This document shows, piece after piece, positions 39,691-59,973 of a stretch of DNA of 64,000 nt. The notes below the pieces were generated by a model. The model searched no databases. It was given only the letters and a program-made list of their open reading frames with translations, and had not been told where the DNA came from. The stretch is from the NCBI GenBank assembly GCA_021801025.1, contig JAJYYK010000003.1, positions 124,001 to 188,000 of the forward strand, written 5' to 3'. The position numbers and the translations under genes were made by a program. Source of the stretch: Pseudomonadota bacterium. Its GTDB lineage: Bacteria > Pseudomonadota > Gammaproteobacteria > Burkholderiales > Sulfuriferulaceae. Positions within the stretch are counted from its first letter, which is position 1. Each line of letters begins with the position of its first letter.

Positions 39691-40721
39691 CCAGGTTAAT
39701 CCGCAACTCAACCGCCGAATTTTTGATGTTCACCAGCCAGGCGGGTGAAGACAGCATCGAAGTACGCGTTGAAAATGAGACGGTTTGGCTCACGCAAAAG
39801 ATGATGGCGAAATTGTTCGGTGTTGAAGTACCCGCCATTATCAAGCACATAGCCAACATCTTGGCGGAAGCCGAGCTGACTGAGGCAACTACTTCCAAAA
39901 TGGAAGTAGTTCAACAAGAGGGCACACGGTCAGTTCGTCGCACAGTGGATTTTTATAATCTGGATATGATTATTGCCGTTGGCTATCGCGTCAATTCCAA
40001 ACGCGCCACCCAGTTCCGCCAATGGGCAACGCAAGTGCTCAAGCAGTTTGCCATCAAAGGCTTTGTGCTGGACAGGAAACGGCTGGAAAACGGCACGTAT
40101 TTAGGTGCGGATTACTTCGAACAACTGCTGGCTGAAATTCGGGAAATACGCCTGAGCGAGCGTAAATTTTACCAAAAAATCACCGACATTTACGCCACCA
40201 GCCTCGATTACAACAAAGACGCAATCACCACTAAAGAATTCTTTGCCAAGGTGCAGAACAAGCTGCATTTTGCCATTCATGGCCACACCGCTGCCGAACT
40301 GATAGTGGAACGCGCCGATAGCAAGCAACCGTACATGGGGCTGAGTACCTGGGCAAAAGCGCCTGAAGGCAAAATCCTCAAAACCGATGTCGTCGTCGCC
40401 AAGAATTACTTAATGCAAGCAGGGATGGAATCGTTGGGACGCATCGTCAACGCCTATCTGGATTTAGCCGAGGAACGTGCCAAGCGCAACATCCCCATGA
40501 CGATGGAAGACTGGGCTAAGCGGCTGGACAGTTTTCTGGCGTTTGATGAGCGCGACATATTGCAGGACGCCGGAAAAATCACCGCTGAAATCGCCAAAGC
40601 CCATGCGGAAAGCGAGTTTGAACAATACCGTATTGTACAAGACAGGCTGTTCGCATCGGATTTTGATAAATTGCTGAACTTGCCGCAAGCCGGCGATGTA
40701 AGTGACGACAATCATGAGTGA
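39687..40721 (+). CDS. RhuM family protein
   Basis: A 344-residue protein of the RhuM type, named after a Salmonella pathogenicity-island gene and often found in restriction operons. Visible elements are VWLTQKMMAKLFGVEVPAI (DNA-binding-like helices), RRTVDFYNLDMIIAVGYRVN, QFRQWATQVLKQFAIKGFV and a C-terminal helical domain. Biochemical role unknown; association with type I systems suggests an accessory or toxin-like function. Coupled to hsdM by ATGA. A 175-bp gap without a gene separates it from hsdS. Confidence 0.85.
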   Translation: MTRLIRNSTAEFLMFTSQAGEDSIEVRVENETVWLTQKMMAKLFGVEVPAIIKHIANILAEAELTEATTSKMEVVQQEGTRSVRRTVDFYNLDMIIAVGYRVNSKRATQFRQWATQVLKQFAIKGFVLDRKRLENGTYLGADYFEQLLAEIREIRLSERKFYQKITDIYATSLDYNKDAITTKEFFAKVQNKLHFAIHGHTAAELIVERADSKQPYMGLSTWAKAPEGKILKTDVVVAKNYLMQAGMESLGRIVNAYLDLAEERAKRNIPMTMEDWAKRLDSFLAFDERDILQDAGKITAEIAKAHAESEFEQYRIVQDRLFASDFDKLLNLPQAGDVSDDNHE

Positions 40722-40896
40722 ACGCACATGAGCCTATCCCTTACTCATGACATGACCTGCGTGGGGAATAACGCAAATTATTTACCCGTGATGGGCGGAA
40801 CGTGTATACGAAACGCCAGTTTTCTATGCACGTCTGACGACACACGCACACAAAGAGGCGCTTTTCTGTGCATGGCCTCTGTCGAGGGCGGTAGCC

Positions 40897-42228
40897 ATGA
40901 ATAAGCCGCTAACCGTTCAGGAAGTTCCGGCAAGCTACCAAGTGGTGATGGACTCGCTACCCCTTAGAGTGGGTTACAAGCAGACTGAGGTGGGAGTGAT
41001 ACCGGAGGATTGGCATGCAAGAAAACTCGGAGACCTAGCATCCTTCCGCACAGGGCCTTTTGGTAGCGCCTTGCATAAATCTGACTATACACATGACGGA
41101 GTACCTGTCATAAATCCCATGCACATGAATGATGGTCAAATTGTGCCAAGTCGCAGTATGACTGTTACAGAATCAGCGGCTGCTGGCTTTTCCGAATTCA
41201 GACTCAAACCGAACGAGGTAATAATCGGCAGGCGTGGCGACATGGGGCGATGTGCGGTAGTTCAGCATGAGCATCTTGGCTGGCTTTGTGGGACGGGGTC
41301 AATGATTGTTCGACCTTCATCGGGTGTTGATGCTGAGTTTCTACAGCGCATTCTTTCGAGCGCATCGGTCATATCCGCCATTGAGGAAACATCTGTCGGT
41401 TCAACAATGATTAACCTTAATCAGGGGACTTTGAGTGGATTGGTCATTCAAGCACCACCTCTCCCCGAACAACGCGCCATCGCTACCGCCCTGTCCGATG
41501 TCGATGCCCTGCTGGCAGCACAAGACAAACTCATCGCCAAGAAACGCGACATTAAGCAAGCCACCATGCAACAACTCCTAACCGGCAAAACCCGATTGCC
41601 GGGGTTTAGTGGGGAGTGGGAGGTGAAGCGGTTGGGGGATGTTTGCTGGTATCAAGAAGGGCCAGGTGTGAGAAATACCCAATTCACCAAACAAGGCGTG
41701 AAACTCCTCAATGGAACGAATATTGCTGGCGGGACAATTGTATTAGAGACGACTAATCGATACATCTCGGAAAAAGAAGCATTTGGGAGCTACAAACATT
41801 TTTTGGTCGATGATGGTGATATTTTAATTGCATCTTCAGGTGTAACCATAGATCGATTTCATGAAAAGGTGGCGTTTGCCTTGTTAGAGAATTTACCACT
41901 TTGCATGAATACCAGCACGATTAGATTTAAGGTGAATGAGACAGAGCTTCTTGATAAGTTTTTATATTTTTTCTTGCAGTCTGACTTATTCAAAGAACAA
42001 ATAGGTAAACAAGCAACAGGATCCGCCCAACTTAATTTTGGGCCAGCTCACTTAACAAAAATTAATATAAATCTTCCACTAATAACTGATGAACAAACCG
42101 CCATCGCCACTATCCTCTCCGACATGGATGTCGAAATCACCGCGCTGGAACAGCAGCGCGAGAAAACCCGTGCCCTCAAGCAAGGCATGATGCAGGAACT
42201 ACTGACTGGAAGGATACGTCTCGTATGA
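40897..42228 (+). CDS. hsdS: Type I restriction-modification specificity subunit HsdS
   Basis: Determines the bipartite DNA target of the methylase and nuclease. The 443-residue product has two target-recognition domains (about 35-195 and 235-395), each followed by a conserved helical repeat: PPLPEQRAIATALSDVDALL and TDEQTAIATILSDMDVEITA, each then leading to MQQLLTGKTRL or MQELLTGRIRL. GAGGGCGG precedes ATG 40897. The stop overlaps hsdR (ATGA). The second recognition domain is visibly more AT-rich than the rest, as expected when such domains are exchanged. Confidence 0.95.
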   Translation: MNKPLTVQEVPASYQVVMDSLPLRVGYKQTEVGVIPEDWHARKLGDLASFRTGPFGSALHKSDYTHDGVPVINPMHMNDGQIVPSRSMTVTESAAAGFSEFRLKPNEVIIGRRGDMGRCAVVQHEHLGWLCGTGSMIVRPSSGVDAEFLQRILSSASVISAIEETSVGSTMINLNQGTLSGLVIQAPPLPEQRAIATALSDVDALLAAQDKLIAKKRDIKQATMQQLLTGKTRLPGFSGEWEVKRLGDVCWYQEGPGVRNTQFTKQGVKLLNGTNIAGGTIVLETTNRYISEKEAFGSYKHFLVDDGDILIASSGVTIDRFHEKVAFALLENLPLCMNTSTIRFKVNETELLDKFLYFFLQSDLFKEQIGKQATGSAQLNFGPAHLTKININLPLITDEQTAIATILSDMDVEITALEQQREKTRALKQGMMQELLTGRIRLV

Positions 42229-45200
42229 GCACTGTCGGCCAAATTGAACGTGCCACCCAGCAGCGGGTGGTGAAGCTGTTCCGCGATGCGCTGGGCTACG
42301 ACTATCTGGGCAAATGGATCGACCGGGCAGGCAATCGTAACATTGAAGATGAGTTAGCGCGGCAGTTTCTCAAGAAACAGGGTTATAACGATGCGCTGAT
42401 CACCAAAGCCTTGCACCAGCTCAACAAGGTGGCGGGCGATCAGACCAAAAGCCTGTATGACAGCAACCAGGCGGTGTATGGCTTGCTACGTTATGGCGTG
42501 AAGATCAAGGCTGATGTGGGCGAAAACACGCAGACGGTGTGGCTGATCGACTGGAACAACCCACTGAACAACCACTTTGCCATTGCCGAAGAAGTGACTG
42601 TCAAAGCTGCGGATGCCAAAGCCAACACCAAACGCCCGGATGTGGTGCTGTATGTGAACGGCATTGCGCTGGGTGTGCTGGAGCTGAAGCGCTCGACCGT
42701 ATCGGTATCCGAAGGCATACGCCAGAATCTGGACAACCAGAAAAAAGTGTTTATCCAGCCGTTTTTTACCACCCTGCAATGGGTCATGGCGGGTAATGAT
42801 ACCGAAGGCGTGCGTTACGGTACGATAGCAACCCCGGAGAAGTATTACCTGACGTGGAAAGAACCGGGCGAGATAGAAAACCTGCTGGATCGCCATCTGA
42901 GCCAGTTATGCGACAAGACGCGTTTTCTCGAATTGATCCACGATTATGTGGTGTTCGATGCAGGGGTGAAAAAGCTCTGCCGTCACAATCAGTATTTTGG
43001 TGTTAAGGCTGCGCAAGACCATATCCGGCGGCGGGAAGGCGGCATCATCTGGCACACCCAGGGCAGCGGCAAGAGCCTGACCATGGTGTGGCTGGCGAAG
43101 TGGATACGCGAGCATGTGCAGGATGCGCGGGTGGTGGTGATTACTGACCGCACCGAGCTCGATGCGCAAATCGAGAAGGTGTTTACAGGCGTGAATGAAG
43201 CCATCCACCGTACCACCAGCGGCGCTGACCTGATCGAAAAGCTCAATGCGCCTTTGCCCTGGCTGATGGCCTCGCTGATCCACAAATTCGTCGGCAAGGA
43301 AGATGACGAGCAGATTGGCGATATCGATGGCTTTATCAATGAGATGAAGCGCAATTTGCCCGCCGATTTCAAAGCGCGCGGCGATATTTACGTGTTTGTG
43401 GACGAATGCCATCGCACCCAGAGTGGCGATCTGCACAAGGCGATGAAGGCATTGCTGCCTAATGCCATGTTCATTGGTTTTACCGGCACGCCACTGCTGA
43501 AAGCAGACAAGCAAAAAAGCATCGAGATTTTTGGCAGCTATATCCACACCTACAAATTTGATGAAGCGGTGAGCGACAAAGTGGTGCTGGACTTGCGCTA
43601 TGAGGCGCGCGATATCGACCAGGACATTTCCTCACCGGCCAAAATCGACCAATGGTTCAACGCTAAAACCAAGGGTCTGAACGATGTGGCATTGGCGCAG
43701 TTGAAGCAGAAATGGGGCAGCATGCAAAAGCTGCTCAGCTCCCGTTCGCGGCTGGAAAAAATCGTTGCCGATATCTTGATGGACATGGCAGAGAAAGACC
43801 GTCTGATGAGCGGTCGTGGTAACGCCATGCTGGTGACCAGCAGCATTTATGAGGCGTGCAAATGCTATGAGCTGTTCGACAAAACCGAACTGGCGGGCAA
43901 ATGCGCCATTGTGACCTCGTATGCGCCATCTCCTGCGGATATCAAGGGCGAGGAAACCGGTGAAGGTTTGACCGAGCGGCTGCGTAAATACGAGATTTAC
44001 AACCAGATGCTGGCGGGGCAATCGGCAGAAGTGTTCGAAACCGAGGTCAAGAAAAAATTCATCGAGCAACCCGGTCAGATGAAATTGCTGATTGTGGTGG
44101 ATAAGTTATTGACCGGTTTCGATGCGCCACCCGCCACGTATTTGTATATCGACAAACAGATGCGCGACCATGGCCTGTTTCAGGCGATTTGTCGCGTCAA
44201 CCGGCTGGATGGCGATGACAAGGAATACGGTTACATCGTCGATTATAAAGACCTGTTCAACAGCCTGGGCACGGCGATCCGCGATTACACCTCGGGTGCT
44301 TTGGATGGCTACGACAAGGAAGATGTAGCCGGGTTGCTGGGCGACCGGCTGAAAATGGCGCGGGAACGTTTGGAAGAAGCACGCGAAACCATCAAGGCAC
44401 TGTGTGAACCGGTGGCCGCGCCACGAGACACCGCCGCCTATTTGCGTTATTTTTGTGCGGCGGATACCGCCGACAAGAACCAGCTCAAGGAAAACGAAGG
44501 CAAACGCATTCTGTTGTACAAGCTGACCGTGTCGCTGATTCGCGCCTATGCTGACATTGCCGGTGAAATGGCTGAAGCGGGCTACAGCGCAGACCAGACG
44601 GTAACGATTCAGCAGGAAGTGGATCATTTTGAGAAGGTTCGCACCGAAGTCAAAATGGCCAGTGGGGACTATATTGACTTGAAACTGTACGAACCCGCGA
44701 TGCGCCATCTGATCGATACCTATTTGCGTGCCGAGGACAGCGAAAAGATCTCCGCCTTTGACAACATGAGTCTGGTGCAGATGATCGTCGAGCGGGGGTT
44801 GGATGCCATCAACGACTTACCCGAGGGGATACGTGATAATCATGAAGCTGTGGCGGAAACCATCGAGAACAATCTGCGCCGCGTTATCATCGATGAACAA
44901 CCGATCAACCCAAAGTACTACGAAAAAATGTCCGAATTGCTGGATGGCCTGATACAGCAACGTCGGGATGCTGCAATAGCGTATGAACAATATCTGGCTG
45001 AATTGATGGCACTGGCCGGACAAATACAACAGCCCGCCAGTTCAACCGCCTACCCGTCGTCATTGCACACGGGCGCCCAACGCGCTTTGTACGATAATCT
45101 CGACAAGGATGTGGAAATGGCGATGGCAGTGGATTATGCCGTGATGAACAGCAAAAGAGACGAATGGCGTGGTCACAAAGTGAAGGAAAAAGAAGTACGC

Positions 45201-45281
45201 TATGCCGTCAAGCAAGTCTTGCACGACGAACAGCTGACCGACCATGTGTTTGAATTGGTCAAGAACCAAAGTGATTACTGA
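42225..45281 (+). CDS. hsdR: Type I restriction enzyme endonuclease/translocase subunit HsdR
   Basis: ATP-driven DNA translocase and nuclease of the type I complex. The 1018-residue product has the N-terminal nuclease motif RPDV (Asp139) and ELK (153-155), Walker A TQGSGKS (278-284), Walker B DECH, FTGTPLL, and TGFDAP of superfamily 2, then a helical C-terminus that contacts the methylase core. All motifs appear intact. It overlaps hsdS by 4 nt and the next gene by a few codons. Confidence 0.96.
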   Translation: MSTVGQIERATQQRVVKLFRDALGYDYLGKWIDRAGNRNIEDELARQFLKKQGYNDALITKALHQLNKVAGDQTKSLYDSNQAVYGLLRYGVKIKADVGENTQTVWLIDWNNPLNNHFAIAEEVTVKAADAKANTKRPDVVLYVNGIALGVLELKRSTVSVSEGIRQNLDNQKKVFIQPFFTTLQWVMAGNDTEGVRYGTIATPEKYYLTWKEPGEIENLLDRHLSQLCDKTRFLELIHDYVVFDAGVKKLCRHNQYFGVKAAQDHIRRREGGIIWHTQGSGKSLTMVWLAKWIREHVQDARVVVITDRTELDAQIEKVFTGVNEAIHRTTSGADLIEKLNAPLPWLMASLIHKFVGKEDDEQIGDIDGFINEMKRNLPADFKARGDIYVFVDECHRTQSGDLHKAMKALLPNAMFIGFTGTPLLKADKQKSIEIFGSYIHTYKFDEAVSDKVVLDLRYEARDIDQDISSPAKIDQWFNAKTKGLNDVALAQLKQKWGSMQKLLSSRSRLEKIVADILMDMAEKDRLMSGRGNAMLVTSSIYEACKCYELFDKTELAGKCAIVTSYAPSPADIKGEETGEGLTERLRKYEIYNQMLAGQSAEVFETEVKKKFIEQPGQMKLLIVVDKLLTGFDAPPATYLYIDKQMRDHGLFQAICRVNRLDGDDKEYGYIVDYKDLFNSLGTAIRDYTSGALDGYDKEDVAGLLGDRLKMARERLEEARETIKALCEPVAAPRDTAAYLRYFCAADTADKNQLKENEGKRILLYKLTVSLIRAYADIAGEMAEAGYSADQTVTIQQEVDHFEKVRTEVKMASGDYIDLKLYEPAMRHLIDTYLRAEDSEKISAFDNMSLVQMIVERGLDAINDLPEGIRDNHEAVAETIENNLRRVIIDEQPINPKYYEKMSELLDGLIQQRRDAAIAYEQYLAELMALAGQIQQPASSTAYPSSLHTGAQRALYDNLDKDVEMAMAVDYAVMNSKRDEWRGHKVKEKEVRYAVKQVLHDEQLTDHVFELVKNQSDY

Positions 45282-46310: not shown

Positions 46311-47357
46311 TCATAACCTTATCAATTCGGTCTGGAAATAAAAAAATTCACGTCCTACAGCAATCACATCTTCAAGAGATATCGTATCATCTTGATTATT
46401 TGCCGTTTCACAGCATGATCCGCACAAAAAACCAATGCCCGGGCACAGGTCACTACAACAGCTTTGATGTTCATTAGCCAATTGGCGGTATTCCACACAA
46501 ATACCGGGAGAACTGGTCTCTGTGATGGTACCGTTTTCATTTATTTTTACAGTCAGCGGCGCGTTACAACTGCTGCAATGTGAATGAATAACAACGTCGG
46601 ATCGTGCAAGAAATGGAACGGCTAACGCATCAATAGCGCACATTGCTGATACACGATGCGCCCCAAATTCTACCTCTGTTCCAGTATTCAAAGCGCTAAA
46701 AGGATAACATCCCAAACCTGACTCAGTCACAACCACTGCATCCAGCGCGACAAGTTGATCTCTTTCAGGTTGGGAGATTATGTCAAGTTGTGGCGGTATG
46801 CCGTTCTGCAACCAAGCCGAAAGGATACTGGCATACGCATTGCGGGTCGCTATATCAGCAGCCTCGATTCTTGTTTGCAAAGGAAACTCAGTTCGTAATC
46901 TGTTCAAATGTCTGGTGACATTACCATGACTAATGTCACGTGGAAAATCCTTTAAACAACAACGTCCAGACGGATTGCTGGTATCGCACGAGCATAGACC
47001 AAGCTTTGTTTGCGCGACCACATAGTCCCTGATAGATGAATCGTTCAACGCATCGGTTTTAGTTACCCCAAAACAGTAGCAAAGCATGGCATCATCACCT
47101 GCCTCCTTCTTTCCCACCTTGGTTCGAAGCTGCGACTTCAAAATTGTTGAGTCGTCGCCAGCAAAATAAACGACGTCGCAATCGGGATCATCACAAAAAA
47201 AATACTGCTGATTTTTGTCTGTCCATTGCCAGGAATGCTTTATGTGATGTGCAATGGTTTTTGCAGAAACCGCTGCGTATTCGATCCCATTAACCGGGCA
47301 CCGATGCTTATTTGGATGCACAGTTTTTTGTTTTGAAGATGAACAGCAATCAGCCAT
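46311..47357 (-). CDS. CopZ-like iron-sulfur/zinc domain fused to alkylmercury lyase (MerB)-like domain
   Basis: The 348-residue protein has two parts. Residues 15-140 resemble the N-terminal domain of archaeal/bacterial CopZ: Cys20 (CPVNG), Cys55/Cys60 (FFCDDPDCDVVYF), then a BFD-like [2Fe-2S] set Cys93-x-Cys95 and Cys122/Cys124/Cys133/Cys134. Residues ~160-348 resemble MerB: SAMC240-AID243-AL matches the catalytic Cys96/Asp99 pair, HSHCSSC and Cys305 or neighbours may replace Cys159, and the end ISLEDVIAVGREFFYF fits MerB. It may cleave carbon-mercury (or other carbon-metal) bonds and hold the metal. No merR, merA or merT is nearby. Confidence 0.7.
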   Translation of the reverse strand: MADCCSSSKQKTVHPNKHRCPVNGIEYAAVSAKTIAHHIKHSWQWTDKNQQYFFCDDPDCDVVYFAGDDSTILKSQLRTKVGKKEAGDDAMLCYCFGVTKTDALNDSSIRDYVVAQTKLGLCSCDTSNPSGRCCLKDFPRDISHGNVTRHLNRLRTEFPLQTRIEAADIATRNAYASILSAWLQNGIPPQLDIISQPERDQLVALDAVVVTESGLGCYPFSALNTGTEVEFGAHRVSAMCAIDALAVPFLARSDVVIHSHCSSCNAPLTVKINENGTITETSSPGICVEYRQLANEHQSCCSDLCPGIGFLCGSCCETANNQDDTISLEDVIAVGREFFYFQTELIRL

Positions 47358-48106: not shown

Positions 48107-48601
48107 ATGTGCTTCTTTGGGCGTATTAAAACAAAAAATTGGTGGTGGGGTCGCCACTCGTTTCAAACCGCGTCTGTAATGCGACTGCGGAAACGTGCGG
48201 GTCGGTGCGGAACACTGCGGAATCAGAATGTTACCGTTGGTCAACCTCCCGGTTTTCGTCCTGGATTTGGCACTGCCGACGTGTTCCGCTCGGTCATCAG
48301 TTCGATTCCCATTTTCTCAATCGAACCCGCGTCCATAATATCGATTACTTTTACTCCGGAGATCGCCAAACGGTCTGCGCCGGTTCCTGTATGAGCGACG
48401 AATCCAGCTATTAGCCTACCGATTTTGGGCGAATTTTTCAACGATCGCCGGATGTTGGCGGCTGTCTCGCACACTTGGACGTCTAGTGAAATAGATCTCG
48501 TTAAATATTGTTGTTCCTGCGTTGTTCGGAAAATGCTTGACATCAAGTTCTAGTGCATCTAGCATCCGCTTAAGAACAACACCAGAACAACGGAGGAAAG
48601 T
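48107..48601. other. Non-coding region between integrase remnant and GTPase gene, with phased TGCGG array
   Basis: A 495-bp gap without a credible gene. At 48181-48220 the motif TGCGG occurs four times with exact 10-bp spacing (48186, 48196, 48206, 48216), so all copies face the same side of the helix. This could be integrase arm-type sites or a regulator array. A minus-strand frame across 48241-48546 has no recognisable content. GGAGG at the right edge is the ribosome binding site of the GTPase gene. Confidence 0.45.
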
Positions 48602-50869
48602 ATGGAAAAGCGTTTTTCGGCAACACTTAGTCGGTCGCAGGGCAGGAGTGCATGGGCAGTAATCTTCCGCCATCCAGTTCGAGTTGACCTGAATACTGGC
48701 AAACCAGGTTTGCGAGTCCGTCAAGGGCTCGGAACGCCCGATGAAGCCGAAGCCAACGAGTTGAAAGATCAACTCAACCAGTTGCTGGCGGACGAGACAT
48801 TCTGGAGCCTGCCGGCAAAAGCCGAAGCCGAGAGGCGTTTTCATCGTCGGGTTACGGAGATCTTTTATCACGGTATGGAGCCGGAGGAGAGTGATTTCGG
48901 CGCGATTCGCGAGTCGATCATTCCACTGCCGATTTCTAAGAACTCCGATTATCGGCGCGCTCTACTACTTGGGACCACTGGTGCTGGTAAAACGACGCTG
49001 CTACGGCAACTGATCGGCACAGACCCAGAGACCGAACGCTTTCCCTCGACATCGACGGCGAAGACCACGGTGCATGAAACCGAGGTGGTTCTTGCGCCCG
49101 GCTCTTACAAGGCCGTGGTCACCTTTTTTCCCATCGATGAAGTTCGGGAACACCTGAATGAATGCATTTCGGAGGCAGTGCTGTCAGCCTATAGAGGCGA
49201 TGATGACGGCGACGTACTTCGCAAGTTACTCATGCACGTGAATCAGCGCTTTCGCTTCAACTATGTCTTGGGAAATGGACCCAAGGCATCGGTTTTGGAC
49301 AACGACGAGGATGACGAGGACGATGAGTTCGTGCCAGATGATGAAACTGCAGCCGACAGCATAATAGATATCGACGGCACCAATGCCTTGCTGACGAAGA
49401 CCCTAGCCGCGCTGCGTACTATAGCGGCGCGTCATGGCAATCAACTCAAGAGCGAGCTTGGTGAGATTGACGAGAAGGATCAGCGGGTCGTCGACGAATT
49501 GTTCGAGGAGGAACTTGATCGCAGTCTGCGAGAGGACGATGAATTCCACCGCATCAGTGACGAACTCATGGACGAGATCGAGCTTCGCTTCTCGTTGCTC
49601 ACTGACGGTACGGTGCGTCGTAAGCAAGGCTGGCCGCAATCATGGTCTTGGGAGACTGAGGATCGGACATCGTTCATCAAAACGGTTACCCGATTTTCCA
49701 GTAATCACTCCCCTCGCTTCGGGTGGCTTCTGACTCCGCTGGTGAACGGGGTTCGGGTGTCAGGTGAATTCCTGCCCGATTGGAACAACGGACAGCAACC
49801 AAAGCTGGTGCTGCTGGATGGCGAGGGATTGGGTCACACTCCCAAATCGGTAGCATCTCTCTCCACATCCTTGAGCCGGCGAATCGAGGCTACTGATGCC
49901 ATCGTGCTCGTCGACAACGCTGTTCAACCGATGCAAGCCGCCCCGGTTGCAGCCATGAAAGAAATGATCACGTCCGGCAGTGCCAGCAAGTTGCTTCTTG
50001 TATTCACGCACTTCGATGAGGTCAAGGGAGACAACTTGCCGAACGCTTTAGCCAAAGAGCAGCACGTACTCGCTTCCGCTGAGAATGTCCTAGCTTCGAT
50101 TGGGGAGGAGTTAGGGCCGTTCGCAGAGCGATCTCTTCGCAACCGTTTAAAAAAGGAGGCTCGCTTCTTCGTCGGTGGAATCGATGAGGACCTGGATGTC
50201 ACGAAGAAGACTCACAGGCGGACCATCGACCAATTGCAAGCGCTGTTGGCTGCCATCAATGCCATAGTTGAGAAGCCCGCGCCCGTCCTCGCGAAGCCGG
50301 TTTATGACCGCATGAATCTTGTCTTGGCCGTAAAGAATGCCGCCGAAAGTTTCCACGATGCTTGGTGGCCACGGTTAGGTCTCGACTATAAGCCCGGGGT
50401 GGGTAAGGAGCACTGGAAACGCATTTGGGCATTGAGCCGACGACTCAGCACGCCGGGGCGCGGTGACGAGTATGATAATCTCAAGCCAGTCGCGGATTTA
50501 CGTAAGCAGCTTCAAGATCGGCTGTATGTGCTGCTTCAAAACCCGATCCGCTGGGACCCCGCCGAGCCGATTGATGACGCGCACAAGCAGCAGGTTTTTG
50601 ACGAGATTGCCAACGCGCTGTCCGTCAAGACCCTAGACCTCGCCACCCGACGCGTTAGGGCCGAACGGATGCCTGAATGGCAGTCGGCGTTTAACCAGTC
50701 AGGGCGTGGATCTAGCTACGCACGCGCCTCAATCATCGGCGAGCGCATTTACGAGCGAGCGGCACCGATTCCTGACGTCACTCCGTCGCCGGACCGCAAT
50801 TCCTTCTTGCACGAAGTGGCGGCGATGGTGGAGAGCGTCTGCGAAGATGTCGGCGCCAAGCTAGCATAG
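48602..50869 (+). CDS. Large GTPase-like P-loop protein of unknown function
   Basis: The 755-residue product is not a family I can name. Residues 1-90 (AWAVIFRHPVRVDLNTG, LRVRQGLGTPDEAEANELK) resemble the small N-terminal DNA-binding domains of integrases. G1 is GTTGAGKT (124-131), a threonine-rich G2-like stretch STSTAKTT follows (149-156), G3 is DGEG (406-409) and a G4-like THFD lies at 469-472. About 250 residues separate G2 and G3, including a very acidic run (233-248) and charged helices. The C-terminal 250 residues are helical. This layout suggests a dynamin-like or defence-type GTPase. GGAGG precedes ATG 48602. It faces an HNH nuclease gene, 292 bp away, with no gene in the gap. Confidence 0.6.
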   Translation: MEKRFSATLSRSQGRSAWAVIFRHPVRVDLNTGKPGLRVRQGLGTPDEAEANELKDQLNQLLADETFWSLPAKAEAERRFHRRVTEIFYHGMEPEESDFGAIRESIIPLPISKNSDYRRALLLGTTGAGKTTLLRQLIGTDPETERFPSTSTAKTTVHETEVVLAPGSYKAVVTFFPIDEVREHLNECISEAVLSAYRGDDDGDVLRKLLMHVNQRFRFNYVLGNGPKASVLDNDEDDEDDEFVPDDETAADSIIDIDGTNALLTKTLAALRTIAARHGNQLKSELGEIDEKDQRVVDELFEEELDRSLREDDEFHRISDELMDEIELRFSLLTDGTVRRKQGWPQSWSWETEDRTSFIKTVTRFSSNHSPRFGWLLTPLVNGVRVSGEFLPDWNNGQQPKLVLLDGEGLGHTPKSVASLSTSLSRRIEATDAIVLVDNAVQPMQAAPVAAMKEMITSGSASKLLLVFTHFDEVKGDNLPNALAKEQHVLASAENVLASIGEELGPFAERSLRNRLKKEARFFVGGIDEDLDVTKKTHRRTIDQLQALLAAINAIVEKPAPVLAKPVYDRMNLVLAVKNAAESFHDAWWPRLGLDYKPGVGKEHWKRIWALSRRLSTPGRGDEYDNLKPVADLRKQLQDRLYVLLQNPIRWDPAEPIDDAHKQQVFDEIANALSVKTLDLATRRVRAERMPEWQSAFNQSGRGSSYARASIIGERIYERAAPIPDVTPSPDRNSFLHEVAAMVESVCEDVGAKLA

Positions 50870-51161
50870 TGGACGGTCGCAGGCATTCGAGAAGGGACTC
50901 GCCCCGGAGCGGGGCTAGATGCGCGCTTGCCAGACGTTTCGTTCTGGAGCCATCGGTGCGATCAGGCGCGGAACTTGGTGTTGCCGCGCGATGCGACATG
51001 CGGGGGTAAATTAGACCTTCTTGCTGCTGAACTGCTCAATCTGTGGGATCAACGGCCGCGGAGGATCCAGCGGCTACGTGAGTGCGTCCTAAGACACCCT
51101 GCCGTCTGCAGGAATGAACCGGTCGAGGAACGCGGCCATCTAGTACAGTTTGGTGTTGTGG

Positions 51162-52217
51162 TCACAGCCCCGCAAAGATCCTATGCAGCCGAAGCGCCTC
51201 ACTGCTGGGACAAATGACGCCATGGCCAAGGCGCAAGGACTGACCTCGCAGCGCTTCGTACTCGGTTCCATTCAGGCGTAAGTCAACTAGTACCCTAAGT
51301 GTTTCATGATCGACAGATAGAAGCCCCATGTCGAACAGTGTGTGGAAATCTGCCCGGAGCAGGAGCCCGTTGAGCAAGTGGTTTGTGCCTGGCCCTTGAT
51401 ATGGCACGATATGCGCAGCCTCAAGCGTTTCAATCACCGTACTGCCTGACATTGCACAACTTCCATAGGCGTTAATCAATTGCCGACGAAAAGCTGATTG
51501 TCCACGACGAATTGCGATTTCTCGGGCTACCCGCTCGCGGCCATCTTCGATCATTCCGGGGTCGAATGCTGGCAGGGCCGTTTCAAACTCATCCCGAGGT
51601 GCTGCTTCTTCCCGTTCAGCCTCGGTAATTAGTTCATCCATTGAGCGACCTGTCGCTATTTGCCCTGGAGTGGCGGCGCCAGCGGTGTGATATCTCGGCT
51701 TGTACGTCACGATGTAATCCATGAAGCGAGACGGCCTCATAGCAACAACATATTCACCATGTTGGTTAGAGCCAACTGCTAAGCCCACGGTATACGCATT
51801 GTCGAGTAACGCCTGCCGAAATTGTTGGCTGTCCGATGCTCTTGCATCAAGAATACCTGCGGCAACCTTACGCTCGATTTTTCCATTTACCCGCCGCGCA
51901 ACGCTGTATGGGTTGAAAGCAATGATCAATGGTTCCGGCCCGAAGCTATCGCTCCACCCCAGTACAACCGTTTCTGGATCTGGGGTTGCATCAATCAGTT
52001 GAGTGCTACTACCAATTGCCTGAATGCGGCGTTCATCGGCAGGCCGTACCGTTCCCGTTGCCTGTCCGTTGTCTGTCACTTGCCACGCGTAAAATTTCAA
52101 TGCCCGCGGATATCCTGCAATGTTAGCGACACATCCTTGATTTGCTCGTGCACCGGACAAGATCACCCCGACTCCAGCCGACTGCAACGCAGCAACGATT
52201 TCAGTCATTGCAGACAT
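51162..52217 (-). CDS. HNH endonuclease, putative restriction nuclease
   Basis: The 351-residue product has an unrecognised N-terminal domain of about 200 residues (IIAFNPYSVARRVNGK, ILDARASDSQQFRQALLDNA), a linker with GQIATGRSMDELITEAE, and an HNH domain near 265-315 (SCAMSGSTVIETLEAAHIVP, then NGLLLRADFHTLFDMGLL). The N-terminus could recognise modified DNA or a phage feature; this is inference. ATG 52217 is chosen because GGAG lies 9 nt upstream; the frame is open to 52376. It stands divergent to the methyltransferase gene and convergent to the GTPase gene. Confidence 0.75.
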   Translation of the reverse strand: MSAMTEIVAALQSAGVGVILSGARANQGCVANIAGYPRALKFYAWQVTDNGQATGTVRPADERRIQAIGSSTQLIDATPDPETVVLGWSDSFGPEPLIIAFNPYSVARRVNGKIERKVAAGILDARASDSQQFRQALLDNAYTVGLAVGSNQHGEYVVAMRPSRFMDYIVTYKPRYHTAGAATPGQIATGRSMDELITEAEREEAAPRDEFETALPAFDPGMIEDGRERVAREIAIRRGQSAFRRQLINAYGSCAMSGSTVIETLEAAHIVPYQGPGTNHLLNGLLLRADFHTLFDMGLLSVDHETLRVLVDLRLNGTEYEALRGQSLRLGHGVICPSSEALRLHRIFAGL

Positions 52218-52302
52218 GAATTGACGCTCCATAATAATGAATCGAAGTATTTTATCTGTAAAATGGTAATGGAAGATAGTGCGGCAGTTGAGGAACAGGG
52301 CT

Positions 52303-52754: not shown

Positions 52755-54059
52755 ATGGGCCGCCCTAAATCTTCTTCACCTCGAGATAGCTTTGCAAACG
52801 TACGCTTAACGAGCCAGGAACGAGAGGAGATCGAGGCTACTGCTCGTGCGCTTGGCCTCAGGTCGATTAGTGAGTATCTGCGACACCTTCACAAGCTACA
52901 CAACCAACCCGAAGGTCAAGTAGAAACAAGTACTGCAGATGAGACGCAACGGCCGTCATACAATGGTGACCGATTAAAATCGTTCTTCAAAACCCAACAG
53001 GGGCAAATGTACCAAGGCAACAGCCTGGACTTCCTGCATTCAAAAGCCAAAGAACAGTCCGTTGACTTGATTATGACCTCACCTCCATTCGGTCTCGTAC
53101 GCAAGAAAAGCTATGGCAACGAGGACGCAGATGAGTACTGTAATTGGTTTCGCCCATTTGCCGAGGGATTCAAGCGAGTTCTGAAAAACACCGGCTCATT
53201 AGTAATTGACATTGGTGGGGCATGGAAGCCTGGCATGCCTACCCGATCCCTTTATCACTTTGAACTGCTAATGATGCTTTGTCGAGAATATGGCTTTCAT
53301 CTGTGCCAAGAACATTTTTGGTGGAACCCATCGAAGCTCCCAACGCCAGCTGAGTGGGTCAATGTTCGACGCGTCCGCGTAAAGGATGCTGTAAATTGTA
53401 TTTGGTGGCTATCCCCAACCCCCTGGCCCAAGGCGAACAATCGGCGCATCTTGGCTCCATATAGCGAGTCAATGCGTCATCTCCTGAAGAATGGCTATAC
53501 GGCAAAGATGCGTCCATCAGGGCATGACATTTCCGATAAATTCCAGAGAGACAACGGTGGTGCCGTTCCGCCAAATTTACTTGCGGTCGCCAACACAGAG
53601 TCAAATGGACGTTATCAAGACTTCTGCCGCCTAAACAACTTAGAAATTCACCCAGCACGTTTCCCGTCTCAATTGCCGGAATACTTCATCCGGATGCTTA
53701 CCGATCCAGGCGATATAGTGGTGGATCCATTTGGTGGCTCATGCGTGACCGGCATGGTTGCGGACGATCTGAAACGTCGTTGGGTATGCATTGAGATGTC
53801 GGAGTCTTATTTGCAGGGGGCTGTCGGGCGATTCAAGGGCGCAGCACCTTCAACGTGCGCGAACAAGCGAGTGCAGTATACTATTAACCCACCTTGCTCG
53901 TTGCCTGTTGATGATGCGGCCACACCATTACCCCCCGATGGAGGACAGTCTCGGCCTCCTATTGTCAAGCAGCCAAAGGGGACAGAGCGGGTGAAGGTAT
54001 CGAAGCTAAGTTCAAGGCGCGTGACCACTGATCCAGTGCTTGCGACTGAATCGAATTGA
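52755..54059 (+). CDS. DNA N4-cytosine methyltransferase, M.PvuII-like, with ribbon-helix-helix N-terminus
   Basis: The 434-residue product begins with a ribbon-helix-helix-like DNA-binding domain (VRLTSQEREEIEATARALGL, residues 16-46). A beta-class amino-methyltransferase follows: catalytic TSPPFGL (108-114), NPSKLPTPAEWVN, RVKDAVNCIWW, RPSGHDIS, HPARFPSQLPEYFIRMLTDP, and SAM motif I DPFGGS (324-329). These stretches match what I remember of M.PvuII closely, so it probably makes N4-methylcytosine; the target may be CAGCTG-like but is not proven. The last ~75 residues are disordered. Its 3' end overlaps the convergent nuclease gene by 95 bp. Confidence 0.85.
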   Translation: MGRPKSSSPRDSFANVRLTSQEREEIEATARALGLRSISEYLRHLHKLHNQPEGQVETSTADETQRPSYNGDRLKSFFKTQQGQMYQGNSLDFLHSKAKEQSVDLIMTSPPFGLVRKKSYGNEDADEYCNWFRPFAEGFKRVLKNTGSLVIDIGGAWKPGMPTRSLYHFELLMMLCREYGFHLCQEHFWWNPSKLPTPAEWVNVRRVRVKDAVNCIWWLSPTPWPKANNRRILAPYSESMRHLLKNGYTAKMRPSGHDISDKFQRDNGGAVPPNLLAVANTESNGRYQDFCRLNNLEIHPARFPSQLPEYFIRMLTDPGDIVVDPFGGSCVTGMVADDLKRRWVCIEMSESYLQGAVGRFKGAAPSTCANKRVQYTINPPCSLPVDDAATPLPPDGGQSRPPIVKQPKGTERVKVSKLSSRRVTTDPVLATESN

Positions 54060-55233
54060 AATCGAAAACCCAGGGCACGCCGAATGTTCTAGGTTCAGCC
54101 GCGAAATCGCAGAGAACTGGCACTGCAAGTGAATGGCCTAGCAAGCCGTCCCAGTCCATTTCCCTGCGGTATCCACGAGCGTAGCGCACCAGTTGATCAA
54201 TGGCTGCGCGAAGAGCAGCACGTCCATCATTACTTTCACCAGTGAAGTACTTCACTTCGGCGATTGCTACAACCTGTTGTGCGGCAGAATTTACGACAAT
54301 TACGTCAGGACGATCCCATCCTGAGCCCATACCGAGCGCCATCAGGATATCTCTGACCTTGTTCTCAGAAGGCTCCAATTCCGGCGTAGTAAAGTACTCG
54401 GTTTGTGCCTGCCAATAAATTCTGTAATCTCCGATGCTGATCAGCATTCCGTCCTGATCGAAGGATGGCGACAAATTGCATGGAACGCCAAGCACTCTGG
54501 CTAGTGATTCACCCATGGCGACCGCGACATACAGTTCAAAGCGCTTCCAGATTTCAAGTGGCCCGAGTAGGTTCTCTTGCAGAACTGCGCAGATTTGTGC
54601 TTCATCACCTTGCTCAATGGCAAGCAGACTGAGGTATGCATCTGCAGCCAATTGATATAGTCGCGCCCGTGCTCGTTTTGCTTGGCTAATCGTAGGCGAC
54701 GATGGTCGCCGCGTCGTTTCAATTTGCATTGTGGCAATGCGGATTCCCTCCAAGCGCCCGGCATCCTCGAGCAACCGAGTAACTTGACCAAAACGCTCAG
54801 AGTATTTTGATTCCTGGCTAGATGTTCGCAATATTTCCCGACCCAAGCGTCGGGCTTCTTCTAGCACCCATATGACTAAATGGTTTGGCCCAGTGGCGTA
54901 GCTTCGCACAGCTTCCAGAGATACAAACAGTGTCGGATTACCTGAGGTAATTTGGCGTATCGCCGTTTCTCTCGCATTTAGACGTCCACGAATCATGCCT
55001 GTATCGGATCTGCGCTCAAACTGCAGTACAGCCGAAGCTTCGTGAGGATTACGGATTAAGTACTCAGCAAGCGCTTGCACTTTCGACGAACAAGCCCAGA
55101 AGATACGCAGAAAGGGGAGGTCGCTATGTTTTTGCAGGCGCGGTGTTCTGAGTGAAACTTGCGCTCCGAAGCGGCGCATTCGAATAAGTAGCGCAACGAT
55201 TGCATCATCAATTTCGCTGCCAACGAGATTCAT
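53965..55233 (-). CDS. McrC-like PD-(D/E)XK nuclease subunit
   Basis: The 422-residue product has a helical N-terminal two thirds that I do not recognise and a C-terminal restriction-nuclease-like core: RPDVIVV (Asp310) and AIAEVKYF (Glu326, Lys328), the PD-(D/E)XK pattern, with QTEY and helices after it. In McrBC and LlaJI/BsuMI-type systems such a subunit cuts DNA on command of the McrB motor. The ATG overlaps the stop of the AAA+ gene (ATGA). The 3' end runs 95 bp into the methyltransferase gene on the other strand. Confidence 0.8.
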   Translation of the reverse strand: MNLVGSEIDDAIVALLIRMRRFGAQVSLRTPRLQKHSDLPFLRIFWACSSKVQALAEYLIRNPHEASAVLQFERRSDTGMIRGRLNARETAIRQITSGNPTLFVSLEAVRSYATGPNHLVIWVLEEARRLGREILRTSSQESKYSERFGQVTRLLEDAGRLEGIRIATMQIETTRRPSSPTISQAKRARARLYQLAADAYLSLLAIEQGDEAQICAVLQENLLGPLEIWKRFELYVAVAMGESLARVLGVPCNLSPSFDQDGMLISIGDYRIYWQAQTEYFTTPELEPSENKVRDILMALGMGSGWDRPDVIVVNSAAQQVVAIAEVKYFTGESNDGRAALRAAIDQLVRYARGYRREMDWDGLLGHSLAVPVLCDFAAEPRTFGVPWVFDFNSIQSQALDQWSRALNLASIPSPALSPLAA

Positions 55234-56357
55234 ACGGACACGCTACGCAGGCGTTGCTCCACTCGGTGCCGTAATGCAGACTCGGCGTGCAACTTCAATC
55301 CCTCGCATATTCCCTGTGTCATGGCTTGGGCACCGTCCCGAAATATTCCGTCAAGCATTGGCAAAATGAACATATCAAAACCATCGAGATAAATTGCAGC
55401 CTGATCTTCGGTGGGGTCAGCCGAAAAGCTCAAGCCGCTGTCCATCTCTCGTATGACCTTAATCATATCGATCACAGGAGCCGGACCAATCAAACGTACA
55501 GCATTGACTGACTGCCAGATTCTTGCGAGAGGAAGAACGACTTGGCTTCCCATTTCCTGGATTTGCTCACGCGTCAAATACTGCTGTAGAAAATCATTCA
55601 GGTCAGTTGGAACATCCAAATAAATCCAAGCGAACCGCCTGGTGAGGGCATAGCTCATTTGATAAAGCGATGCTTTGTCAATTGAGTTAATCGTCGCAAC
55701 GATACGCCATGCTGCACCGGGAGCGAATTCAATGTCTTTTCGTGCGCTGGGATTAGGTTTGGGGAGGATCTCAAAAAAATCGCTATCCCGCTGCTCGACT
55801 TGAACGCGGTATGGGAGCGTTGTTTTTTGCCCTGATAATACGGTGAACAAGGGGCCTATTACCTTGTCAATGTCACAGCGATTTAATTCATCAATGATCA
55901 ACGGACGGTCAAAATGACGGAGCAGTATTCCCGGGACAAACTCGATTCGACCATTGCCAATTGGTTGGTATCCGCCGATCACATCTTGAGATGTCCAGTC
56001 CGATGAACCGGTGATCAATGTATGCTTACTGGCTAAAGAGCGAGCGCAGTGCTGAGCCATAGTGGTTTTACCGGTGCCAGGAGGACCGTAAAACATCAGG
56101 TGCTGTTTTCCGCTCCGAATAGCAGAATTGATCTGGCGGTAGACTGTGGGATCTATGCCCAACAGGTCGGGCACAGCAGGAACTTCTCTTCCAATCACTA
56201 CCTGAACATCGACAACCGAGGACTCATCCTCATCACTGTTTTCGATGCCGGCTGGCTGATGTGCAGACGCTTTGGCATAGGTCTGAGAAATATCTGATGA
56301 GAGGCGCTCAATCTCTTCATCACTTAATCCATGGTATACGGGCACATTATTCAGCAT
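55230..56357 (-). CDS. McrB-like AAA+ NTPase
   Basis: The 375-residue product is nearly all motor: Walker A GPPGTGKTT (91-99), Walker B LIIDELNR (153-160), and INSID (223-227) followed by ALTRRF (237-242). These correspond to the McrB motifs with the MNTxD signature and the arginine finger, where McrB prefers GTP. The N-terminal ~60 residues are short and acidic, so no DNA-recognition domain is attached. ATG 56357 has GGAGG 6 nt upstream; an in-frame ATG at 56375 is less likely. It overlaps the end of the preceding gene. Confidence 0.88.
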   Translation of the reverse strand: MLNNVPVYHGLSDEEIERLSSDISQTYAKASAHQPAGIENSDEDESSVVDVQVVIGREVPAVPDLLGIDPTVYRQINSAIRSGKQHLMFYGPPGTGKTTMAQHCARSLASKHTLITGSSDWTSQDVIGGYQPIGNGRIEFVPGILLRHFDRPLIIDELNRCDIDKVIGPLFTVLSGQKTTLPYRVQVEQRDSDFFEILPKPNPSARKDIEFAPGAAWRIVATINSIDKASLYQMSYALTRRFAWIYLDVPTDLNDFLQQYLTREQIQEMGSQVVLPLARIWQSVNAVRLIGPAPVIDMIKVIREMDSGLSFSADPTEDQAAIYLDGFDMFILPMLDGIFRDGAQAMTQGICEGLKLHAESALRHRVEQRLRSVSV

Positions 56358-57861
56358 TCGCCGCCTCCGCTTCATCCAAAAACATAGGGCGAACGTGAAT
56401 CATGCGTGTCAATGCAATTGTGGCCTCCTGGTAGCTTAATTTCTTAGTTGCGTCTCCAGCGACGGTACTGAATTGGGCATCTTCGACGTTTAGCGTAATC
56501 AGTGCCGAAAAGACATAAGGCTGATCTTTTCCCATGTAAATGAGCAAGCCATTTTCCGGGTTGAAATCATCGAGCAACTGACCAGATGAACCCTTTGGAA
56601 GTGCTGGAAAAAAGCACAGCAAGAAAAGCCATTCCCACTCCTCATGAAACACAAATTGGTCGGCAGAAATTTTTATTGCCGGAACGATTCGTACCGTTAT
56701 TGCCCCGCTTTTTTGCTGTGCGTTATTTGAAAATGCAATGCGGCGATTGCCATGTAAGGGCACCCCATCTTTGTCTGCAATTCGTGCGACTGGTGAATCA
56801 CCGGTTATATCGAGGTGAACAATCCAACGCAGTGGTTTATTGGTAGCTTCGGCTGGGTCTTTCCAGAATCCAGTGGTTGTATCAATTTCCTTGTTGCAAC
56901 CCGCCAAGTTCGATTTCTTAGACCCGCACTGACGCAACTCCAAGCCATAAGGTTCGATAGAACGTTCGATTACTCCGGCAATCGTGCGTCGCGCTTGTTG
57001 CATGCTAACGGATGACCATTGTTCCTGAAGCGGGCTATTGTAGAAATCAAGTTTGTTTGTCCCGAACTCGGCTTCTAGCTTCCCACGGATGCTCGATATA
57101 GCTTTATCCATTTCGAGCAAACTAGGATTGGAGGATTTGGGAATACTGTCGGTGGCAAGTTTTGATTTGAAAGCGGCGAGGATGAGTCTGCGATGATCGT
57201 TACTAACGATCCGCTCAATCTGGTCAGGGAAAATGAAGTACAGTAGTGCATTGCGGATCGGTCGATGGGCCGCGTTCGGAATCGCATCCAGCCACTCAAC
57301 AAAGTCCCAAGGACTATTGTTGGAGATTAGGTCTGATCGTTGTCCATCCGTCAGTCCTTTCCAAGTACTCAAAGCCTGCAAGAAGAACCATAACTGATCG
57401 GGGCGCCGGGTCAGATATGCGACGCCAACCCCACCGACCCCAACAAGATGAGGGGAGTCAAGTAGTCGATCATTTGGAATGGGATCTTCCGACCACCCCC
57501 ATATATCACGAACTTGGGCGGCTTTAGTTTCAGGATTGTAACCAGATTTATGGGGGAAAAGCAGGTAGAACCAAAAAATCTCTGCGGCGAGTTTCTTCAC
57601 ACCCTTGGGTGCGGAAGCAATCTGTTCTTTCAGTTTGTCGAAGAAGTCTCTATTGCCTTCAATAGGGTTGCCTTCAAAAAGCCGGCGAAGCTCGTCGAAA
57701 TTCGATTTTGACCATATCGGTTCGTCAGAAAACACCGAGCCATCGCGCAAAAGGCAATTGGCACGCCACGCGTCTGCCGCCTCAAGTACAGCAGCCACCT
57801 CCATCTCGCCCGTGTATCTTGACATACCACCCCATTTTGTTATTTTTAAACCATATGGCAT
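56347..57861 (-). CDS. Stand-alone McrB N-terminal-type recognition protein
   Basis: A 504-residue protein without nucleotide-binding motifs. Its first half contains FPDQIERIVSNDHRRLILAA and similar blocks that I associate with the region preceding AAA+ domains in long McrB-type proteins. The middle (~290-400; RRTIAGVIERSIEPYGLELR, PLRWIVHLDITGDSPVARI) may be a second DNA- or base-reading domain. It is probably the target-recognition part of the restriction machine, separated from its motor. The start is uncertain: ATG 57861, or ATG 57825 (MSRYTGEMEV) with GGGGTGG close by. It is the first gene of the three-gene operon. Confidence 0.6.
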   Translation of the reverse strand: MPYGLKITKWGGMSRYTGEMEVAAVLEAADAWRANCLLRDGSVFSDEPIWSKSNFDELRRLFEGNPIEGNRDFFDKLKEQIASAPKGVKKLAAEIFWFYLLFPHKSGYNPETKAAQVRDIWGWSEDPIPNDRLLDSPHLVGVGGVGVAYLTRRPDQLWFFLQALSTWKGLTDGQRSDLISNNSPWDFVEWLDAIPNAAHRPIRNALLYFIFPDQIERIVSNDHRRLILAAFKSKLATDSIPKSSNPSLLEMDKAISSIRGKLEAEFGTNKLDFYNSPLQEQWSSVSMQQARRTIAGVIERSIEPYGLELRQCGSKKSNLAGCNKEIDTTTGFWKDPAEATNKPLRWIVHLDITGDSPVARIADKDGVPLHGNRRIAFSNNAQQKSGAITVRIVPAIKISADQFVFHEEWEWLFLLCFFPALPKGSSGQLLDDFNPENGLLIYMGKDQPYVFSALITLNVEDAQFSTVAGDATKKLSYQEATIALTRMIHVRPMFLDEAEAANAE

Positions 57862-58719: not shown

Positions 58720-59165
58720 GCTGGCGTCCCTGCGTTGAATTCCGCATCTTCCGCCAGCCGCCGGTGCAGGAGTCCGGCCAGAACCCGCCCCGCATCCCGG
58801 TCCCACAGCGGAAACTGCAGGGCGGCGGCCGCGAGATTCCCTGCATTGATGTCTTTCAGCATCGTCGAGCGGGCGAAGGCGCCCACCCCGAGGTTGAAGA
58901 CGAAATCCACCAGGGCATCGAACTCGGATTGCTTCAAGGGGATGCTCACCAGATGATTCACGGCATCGGTGGCGCTCCGGGTATCCTCGATCAGCCAGGC
59001 TTGGGCCTGGTCCTGCGTGCAGGTCATGCCCTCGTGAACACCGTAGGTGTGGCCATAGCCGATCGTCCACACGCCGCCGGTGTCGGGATAGGCGGTGAGC
59101 CGGCAACCTTCGAATCGTTCGGTGAGGGTCAGGCCCGCCTTGCTGTAGGTCATGAGTGAGTTCAT
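58716..59165 (-). CDS. Phage endolysin, T4-type lysozyme (glycoside hydrolase family 24)
   Basis: The 149-residue muramidase shows the catalytic region ERFEGCRLTAYPDTGG and VWTIGYGHT (Glu-Asp-Thr triad) and VDFVFNLGVGAFARSTML. No signal peptide, so it needs a holin. GGAGGAT precedes ATG 59165, which overlaps the stop of the PLD-like gene (ATGA). Confidence 0.92.
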   Translation of the reverse strand: MNSLMTYSKAGLTLTERFEGCRLTAYPDTGGVWTIGYGHTYGVHEGMTCTQDQAQAWLIEDTRSATDAVNHLVSIPLKQSEFDALVDFVFNLGVGAFARSTMLKDINAGNLAAAALQFPLWDRDAGRVLAGLLHRRLAEDAEFNAGTPA

Positions 59166-59728
59166 TTTTCATCCTCCACGATGGATTTTTGGTACTGCGG
59201 TTCGTTGGCTCTCACCCAATCCCACAGTCGGTCGAAGGCCTGCTCGTAATAGCGGGCAAGTCCCTCGGATTCGGTGAAACAGAGGTCATTCAACTGCTGG
59301 CTGGCGCTCACCGAGTAATTCCATGAGCCATCCTCGACCATAGCCTTGCCGTCCGGCGTGCGGATTACCGTGGCTTTGAGATGCACGATCTGGTGGTGTA
59401 TGGGCGAAGTGCCGATGAGGAAGTGCTCCCCGTCGACCAGTCCCGCAGCCATGAGCCGCTCGATCTGCGGCGCCTCGGCGCGTCCTGCTGCCTGGGTGTG
59501 GTCGAAGATCACCCGCACGTCGCACCCTGCCGTGTGCGCCGCGATCACTGCATCGAAGAAGGGTTGCAGGGTGCAGCCGTAGATCATGGTACGAAGCTTG
59601 GCGCCGGACTGCGCTGAACTTATAAGATACGCCTCGAAGGCTGCAAGCCCGTCGGCATACGGCGTGATGAGTCGGGTCTGCTCGGCGGTTTCATGCAGGA
59701 TGCCGAGAGAGGAGAGGATGGCATTCAT
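59162..59728 (-). CDS. Phospholipase D-like (HKD) protein in the lysis cassette
   Basis: A 188-residue protein with one HKD-type motif: HLKATVIRTPDGKAMVEDGS followed by WNYSVSASQQLND, as in small Nuc/Zuc-type PLD enzymes that work as dimers and act on phosphodiesters (DNA, RNA or lipids). Earlier parts (VRVIFDHTQAAGR) fit the fold. No signal peptide. ATG 59728 overlaps the preceding gene's stop (ATGA). Its position among lysis genes is unusual; a role in DNA degradation, exclusion or membrane damage is guesswork. Confidence 0.75.
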   Translation of the reverse strand: MNAILSSLGILHETAEQTRLITPYADGLAAFEAYLISSAQSGAKLRTMIYGCTLQPFFDAVIAAHTAGCDVRVIFDHTQAAGRAEAPQIERLMAAGLVDGEHFLIGTSPIHHQIVHLKATVIRTPDGKAMVEDGSWNYSVSASQQLNDLCFTESEGLARYYEQAFDRLWDWVRANEPQYQKSIVEDEK

Positions 59729-59973
59729 TTGATCACCCCGTGTCCATGAATGACCGCCCAGATCACGGCGATACCGCTGCCGACCGCCGACAGCCACATG
59801 ACGGCACGCGCCCCGAACTTGGCGGCGAGGAAGGTCTGTTTCATCTCGTTCATCTCCTCCGAGTGTTTCTGGTGGAAGGTTTCGATGTAGTGGGCGAGCA
59901 GCCGGAATTCCGGCGACTCGATCTTGTCGATTTCGGCGCGCAGGGTTTCCAGTGTTTGCTGGGTTTCGGTCAT
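59725..59973 (-). CDS. Small phage membrane protein
   Basis: An 82-residue protein: hydrophilic helix (TLETLRAEIDKIESPEF), then a C-terminal membrane span (ARAVMWLSAVGSGIAVIWAV). GAGGAGA lies 7 nt before ATG 59973, which is preferred to an ATG two codons earlier. It could be a holin, antiholin or other lysis accessory. First gene after a strong terminator, so lysis genes may have their own promoter or depend on antitermination. Confidence 0.6.
   Translation of the reverse strand: MTETQQTLETLRAEIDKIESPEFRLLAHYIETFHQKHSEEMNEMKQTFLAAKFGARAVMWLSAVGSGIAVIWAVIHGHGVIK

Follow-up and report, generated by a model that had tools for sequence, protein, structure and literature searches.

A mobile one-gene unit encoding a candidate dynamin-like, probably autoregulated GTPase in a bacterial defence island

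The question raised by this locus is whether two adjacent genes, one for an unnamed large GTPase and the other for an HNH nuclease, work together in defence, or whether the GTPase stands by itself. Both genes lie in the 64,000-nucleotide stretch of DNA analysed here (the window: positions 124,001 to 188,000 of contig JAJYYK010000003.1, assembly GCA_021801025.1, from a Pseudomonadota bacterium of the Sulfuriferulaceae). As the original prediction had noted, they are placed between a type I restriction-modification (R-M) system (37321-45281) and an operon with an AAA_5 ATPase that is weakly McrB-like (53965-57861). What that prediction observed holds, and part of its interpretation as well: an unnamed GTPase in a defence setting is supported, whereas the GTPase-HNH module and the novel N-terminus ascribed to the nuclease are not. 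The GTPase gene is instead read here, with somewhat more confidence than doubt, as a solitary mobile defence-type gene whose autoregulated, soluble, dynamin-like product would act without a partner protein against phages or plasmids.

The open reading frame (ORF) at 48602-50869 is real, as about 45 relatives with 38-92% identity are found, most of them full-length. Its motifs were assessed in an alignment of 22 sequences, the relatives in which are 39-90% identical to the window protein. The G1, G2, G3 and G4 motifs of TRAFAC-type GTPases are present and nearly or fully invariant, and the G2 and G3 regions are separated by about 250 residues, as had been read from the sequence before. The features of the gene and its product are:

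48602..50869, + strand: unnamed large GTPase, 755 aa, soluble, without predicted membrane span (homologue alignment, predicted model)
48602..48901, + strand: N-terminal domain of about 100 residues, predicted fold of three strands and three helices, basic first 45 residues; putative heptamer-repeat binder
48971..48997, + strand: G1 / Walker A motif GTTGAGKTT, all but the last residue invariant (GTTGAGKT, residues 124-131)
49040..49069, + strand: switch-I-like motif FPSTSTAKTT (G2 region), residues 147-156, invariant except one Ala
49127..49741, + strand: insert between G2 and G3, with helices, an acidic disordered linker (residues 229-251) and a beta hairpin with an invariant WPxxW
49817..49828, + strand: G3 motif DGEG (DxxG type), residues 406-409, DGEG or DGQG across the 22 aligned sequences
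50006..50017, + strand: G4 motif THFD (N/TKxD-like), residues 469-472, invariant, with H where K is expected
50294..50866, + strand: C-terminal helical domain with invariant HW.R and W...G..S..R motifs (alignment, predicted model)

No model of Pfam, NCBIfam or PADLOC covers the GTPase over its length, and to this extent the earlier statement that it has no named family is true. Sequence searches return no solved relative (best E 0.083), and a search of phage records is without match. Few genomes carry the family: in the class, 4 out of 369 give a match (two of these by short stretches only), and among 61 close relatives the own genome alone carries it.

Upstream of the start codon at 48602, alignment of the corresponding regions of relatives reveals an element of the general form GTTGTTC-n4-GTTGTTC ... 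GAACAAC-n4-GAACAAC, which encloses the GTPase promoter:

48510..48527, + strand: operator left arm, direct heptamers GTTGTTC-CTGC-GTTGTTC with period 11 (shuffles; conserved upstream of relatives)
48537..48565, + strand: sigma-70-like promoter TTGACA-17-TAGCAT between the arms (best of eight candidates)
48574..48591, - strand: operator right arm, the same pair inverted (GAACAAC-ACCA-GAACAAC on the + strand), between the -10 and the start codon

Shuffles of the window are expected to yield 0.00 heptamer pairs, and the exact pair occurs just twice in the 2.38-Mb own genome, both times at this promoter. Scored out of 28, the operator reaches 23-28 in 37 of the 38 members that have the N-terminal domain (shuffle null: mean 15.7, maximum 20), the other being a marginal member with a score of 19 (L024). 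Four Rhodococcus members are without the domain, and their scores are 15-18; the co-occurrence of operator and domain has a Fisher p of 4.5e-5. In the close clade the heptamers of either arm have a period of 11, in the prophage clade one of 10; the -35 sits 9 nt past the left arm in nearly all relatives. An exact scan for the full operator in 2.9 million viral contigs gives 9 matches (2 of period 11 and 7 of period 10), and all nine contigs carry a GTPase family gene that starts about 10 bp after the element. The half operator with the -35 matches 12 viral contigs, 11 of which hold family members; the one other (L305), which has neither the right arm nor the gene, was rejected as coincidental. 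The half operator (left arm plus -35; periods 9-10 only) is matched once in 349 bacterial genomes, directly upstream of a family member (G510) that had been found independently by protein. By these scans the operator is specific to the GTPase family gene, and operator and N-terminal domain occur together. The operator was also considered as the end of an element and rejected, as there is no second copy downstream of the GTPase gene.

Given the number of different hosts, it is improbable that a regulator encoded elsewhere serves the operator in all of them, which points to the N-terminal domain as the candidate binder. The domain itself may bind the conserved tandem heptamers with which it co-occurs, and autoregulation of the GTPase gene is the most likely arrangement on this comparison. 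The tandem direct-repeat target proposed for the domain resembles arm-type sites. The description of this N-terminus as integrase-like in the original prediction is suggestive only: a weak, co-linear match to the integrase N-terminal domain DUF6538 is obtained with hhalign (score 22.7 versus 12.0 for the reversed control; pairwise 7e-4), and DUF6538 matches fall below threshold in 3 of 7 members, but no Pfam match is above cut-off, and the identity of an arm domain, sought by Foldseek of the isolated domain, was not found. The domain occurs in no other architecture in 399 genomes or in viral contigs. Three copies lack the N-terminal third (L018 10001-11536, L019 10001-11537 and L022 9979-11447); those of L018 and L019 adjoin a serine recombinase, and those of L019 and L022 are also broken in frame. 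The missing third is nowhere in those genomes, and these copies therefore look like remnants.

How far the unit extends was read from a blastn comparison of the window with relatives in unrelated genomes, where similarity mostly starts at 48510 or 48574 and ends at 50842-51148. The shared DNA comprises about 90 bp upstream of the gene, the gene itself and up to 280 bp on its downstream side, with the first heptamer as left boundary in several loci and with variable downstream ends. At the nucleotide level, the unit is one gene plus its operator. Its carriers are prophages, plasmids (including those of Rhizobiales, Caballeronia, Azospirillum and Rhodococcus) and defence islands, and one copy (L010) adjoins genes for type VI secretion; as several of the source records are short contigs from metagenomes, their stated taxonomy is to be read with care. 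A recurrent protein partner was sought and rejected: near chromosomal copies, where neighbour names rest on start sequences and a pooled Pfam tally, none but type I restriction genes occurs in more than three, and prophage copies have tail genes as their recurrent neighbours. Within the tail operon of alphaproteobacterial-type prophages the GTPase gene stands by itself in reversed orientation, in either of two positions: the first lies between a phrog_6367 gene and the tail terminator, the second between the terminator and a minor tail protein. Of 141 related phages, 97 have the second position closed, with a gap of about 20-40 bp, and three have the GTPase there.

Two side observations concern these mobile settings. 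On an Azospirillum plasmid (L026), a perfect operator is found one gene upstream, ahead of a small co-directional DUF4258 gene (7674-7952) that lies between operator and GTPase gene and suggests a two-gene variant. The first prophage position (phrog_6367 gene to tail terminator; viral contigs L157-L236) holds 0.4-3.4 kb of variable genes in 74 of 133 measured phages, with pAgo-associated nuclease, Schlafen AlbA_2, ParE, RES and RelA/SpoT-like proteins as well as transporters among the content.

The neighbourhood analysis that the original prediction called for bears out an enrichment in defence islands. Of the 31 non-prophage loci, 7 have type I restriction genes at a distance of about 10 kb or less (the window, L009, L015, L018/L019 counted once, L022, L029 and L032). 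The density of HsdR, taken from about 150 HSDR_N matches listed in 143 same-class genomes of about 2.8 Mb (roughly half of the matches strong), predicts such genes in about 0.4-0.8% of 20-kb neighbourhoods (binomial p below 1e-8). Other neighbours of family copies include GmrSD, Abi, BrxL, toxin-antitoxin-type, WYL and Vsr-like genes. These comparisons support the view that residence in mobile elements and in defence islands is commoner among the GTPase relatives than chance would give.

Structure prediction, also proposed earlier, gave a confident AlphaFold2 model (24 sequences; mean predicted local distance difference test score 82.7, predicted template modelling (TM) score 0.81) that includes the C-terminal helices. 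In Foldseek searches of the PDB, the top 10 matches are all bacterial dynamin-like proteins, led by SynDLP (8.0e-7) and followed by an oligomerised bacterial dynamin pair, IniA and BDLP; mitofusins and EHD2 come next. A strand-strand-helix after switch I and a strand pair leading into G3 resemble, in the model, the G2-G3 region of dynamins with an extra helical/hairpin insert of about 170 residues. The model supports, short of proof, a dynamin-like large GTPase, and kinship with the dynamins appears plausible.

A mechanism can be proposed from these elements. Between challenges, the N-terminal domain would sit on the GTTGTTC repeat pairs and repress its own promoter. Infection or a related stress, through a phage- or plasmid-derived trigger, would shift the GTP-bound or oligomeric state of the GTPase; this shift would free the promoter, and the GTPase would build up and assemble. 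The assembled protein may then block phage or plasmid propagation without a partner, perhaps as in DynA, by protecting the membrane and delaying lysis (PMC8844932). Repression by binding, the trigger, dynamin-like assembly and the anti-phage outcome are all put forward on this conditional footing. In its most integrated form the proposal is a one-protein immune switch, in which the dynamin-like GTPase is its own repressor and is released from arm-type repeats by GTP or by assembly, so that one mobile gene joins the sensing of infection to induction and to the effector function; this form is possible but, at present, tentative.

Several points weigh against a solitary, dynamin-like defence gene. 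No phage phenotype is known for the GTPase, and its anti-phage role is presumed from its setting. The TM-scores of the Foldseek matches are low (0.20-0.25), and thus the dynamin-like fold is supported but unproven; profile-profile comparison, tried as a route to dynamin kinship and rejected, aligns the P-loop region alone and does not prefer dynamins over the Era or Der controls. Neither the stalk nor the membrane paddle of canonical dynamins is evident, and no membrane or hydrophobic span is predicted in the GTPase. The isolated N-terminal domain gives no Foldseek match. The Rhodococcus contrast counts as a single evolutionary event behind the Fisher p, because all of these members are in one clade. 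Some chromosomal copies are flanked by housekeeping genes (serA-like and purA-like genes at L016; selB-like and apaH-like genes nearby at L002), and the first tail-operon position is a general cargo slot, exceeding 400 bp in 74 of 133 phages with mixed content that includes transporters and enzymes.

The original prediction of a module, in which the GTPase senses or drives and the HNH nuclease cuts, draws on the adjacency of two genes; the nuclease and its neighbour are:

51162..52232, - strand: MTaX1 plus HNH_2 nuclease, outside the GTPase unit (Pfam, family-locus comparison)
52755..54059, + strand: N4/N6 DNA methylase, outside the GTPase unit; divergent partner of the HNH gene

An HNH nuclease beside the GTPase gene is confirmed; the minus strand encodes it, and its stop codon lies at 51162. 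Its longest ORF starts at 52376 (TTG), the first ATG gives about 356 aa (51162-52232), and the end at 52217 given earlier corresponds to a Met a few residues further into the protein. Its N-terminus is not novel, because it carries the described domain MTaX1 (PF20296, 3.9e-14) ahead of HNH_2 (PF13391, 6.6e-12); in the literature, MTaX1 is described as a potential discriminator of modified DNA that is present in several R-M systems (PMC10853773). Among 229 genomes searched for MTaX1, three others besides the own genome have it. The module is highly improbable: this HNH is absent from the 44 other GTPase family loci (flanks up to 10 kb, often shorter) and found in the own genome only, the two genes are convergent, and DNA similarity to relatives ends before the HNH coding region. 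The HNH gene is instead divergent from the methylase gene at 52755, and its MTaX1 family pairs with a methylase in an independent genome (L054), where a methylase 63% identical to that of the window is directly followed by a protein that matches the HNH over residues 43-365 with 27% identity. From these comparisons, the HNH nuclease and the methylase are a separate R-M-like pair, independent of the GTPase.

Other explanations accept the unit and differ on its purpose or its regulator. The N-terminal domain and the GTTGTTC repeats could be mobile-element recombination machinery, with the protein a GTP-dependent transposition or integration factor and not a defence protein. The weak likeness to integrase N-termini and the mobility of a unit bounded on the left by the first heptamer in several loci fit this idea, but it is quite unlikely, given that both repeat pairs lie on one side of the gene, around the promoter at fixed spacing, that the heptamer pair is nowhere else in the window while the downstream ends vary, that the protein matches no recombinase or nuclease family, and that the Rhodococcus members do without both domain and repeats. 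Slightly less improbable is an operator bound by a host regulator and not by the N-terminal domain, since binding by the own protein rests on comparison; yet the operator travels with the gene through many unrelated hosts without a common neighbour regulator, its exact pair is nowhere else in the own genome, it is missing where the domain is missing, and its spacing differs between protein clades. The strongest competitor, though still rather doubtful, is an autoregulated GTPase of non-defence benefit to mobile elements, such as stress tolerance, lysogen maintenance or superinfection control of the carrying phage. The gene is alone in prophages and plasmids, and the same slot in other phages holds mixed cargo including transporters and enzymes, as such a benefit would allow; the 7 of 31 non-prophage loci that have type I restriction genes close by, and the GmrSD, Abi, BrxL and toxin-antitoxin-type neighbours, argue instead for the solitary defence gene.

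The remainder of the window contributes observations of its own. A RhuM-family gene (PADLOC candidate PDC-S05; 39687-40721) separates hsdM from hsdS in the type I restriction operon. The operon at 53965-57861 (- strand) has three genes, for the AAA_5 ATPase and for two proteins (422 and 504 aa) without Pfam match, and is followed by a PLD-type nuclease gene (59162-59797). The methylase at 52755-54059 has an N-terminal segment like the mobilisation protein NikA (E 1.4e-5, just below the Pfam cut-off). At 46311-47357 (- strand), a CopZ-like zinc/iron-sulfur domain is fused to a MerB-like organomercurial lyase domain. A phage tail / gene-transfer-agent (GTA) megatron-like protein is encoded at the window end (61152-63830, - strand), and the island may therefore border a prophage or GTA cluster.

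If the solitary defence gene is correctly read, a single travelling gene would serve as sensor, regulator and effector, and dynamin-like GTPases, which are widespread in cell-autonomous immunity, would be linked to DNA-sequence-specific control. To our knowledge, such control is known in no dynamin. Because the operator is so specific, a reporter and a single protein would be enough for a direct test of the regulation, and the operator is also usable as a search tag for further members. The analysis further separates two genes that would otherwise be wrongly cloned together as one module.

The libraries and open-access literature searched hold no named system that matches a self-regulated dynamin-like GTPase with a DNA-binding-like domain, and the known systems nearest to it resemble it in part. 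The HNH-methylase pair is of a familiar kind (PF20296 plus PF13391 beside an N4/N6 methylase), with nothing that sets it apart. The N-terminal domain shares with DUF6538 and the arm-type N-terminal domains of tyrosine recombinases a predicted layout of strands followed by helix and the weak co-linear profile match, but it is fused to a GTPase and not to a recombinase, and lacks a significant Pfam or Foldseek match. Eleos (LeoA, LeoBC) is described as a dynamin-like defence system (PMC11811056), and the PADLOC models of LeoA and LeoBC weakly match 14 and 11 of 24 members, respectively. Membership in Eleos was rejected, as these matches are far too weak and partial (the best in the window GTPase covers residues 426-562 only, 9e-5) and the gene is solitary and not part of a two-gene operon; the window family is without a second gene and has its own operator and N-terminal domain. 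The bacterial dynamin-like proteins SynDLP, BDLP and DynA, the last of which delays lysis after phage infection (PMC8844932), are likewise large soluble GTPases and give the best whole-chain structural matches. By contrast with these, the window GTPase has no obvious paddle or long stalk, has an extra N-terminal DNA-binding-like domain, an insert of about 200 residues before G3 and THFD as its G4 motif, and is solitary and apparently autoregulated.

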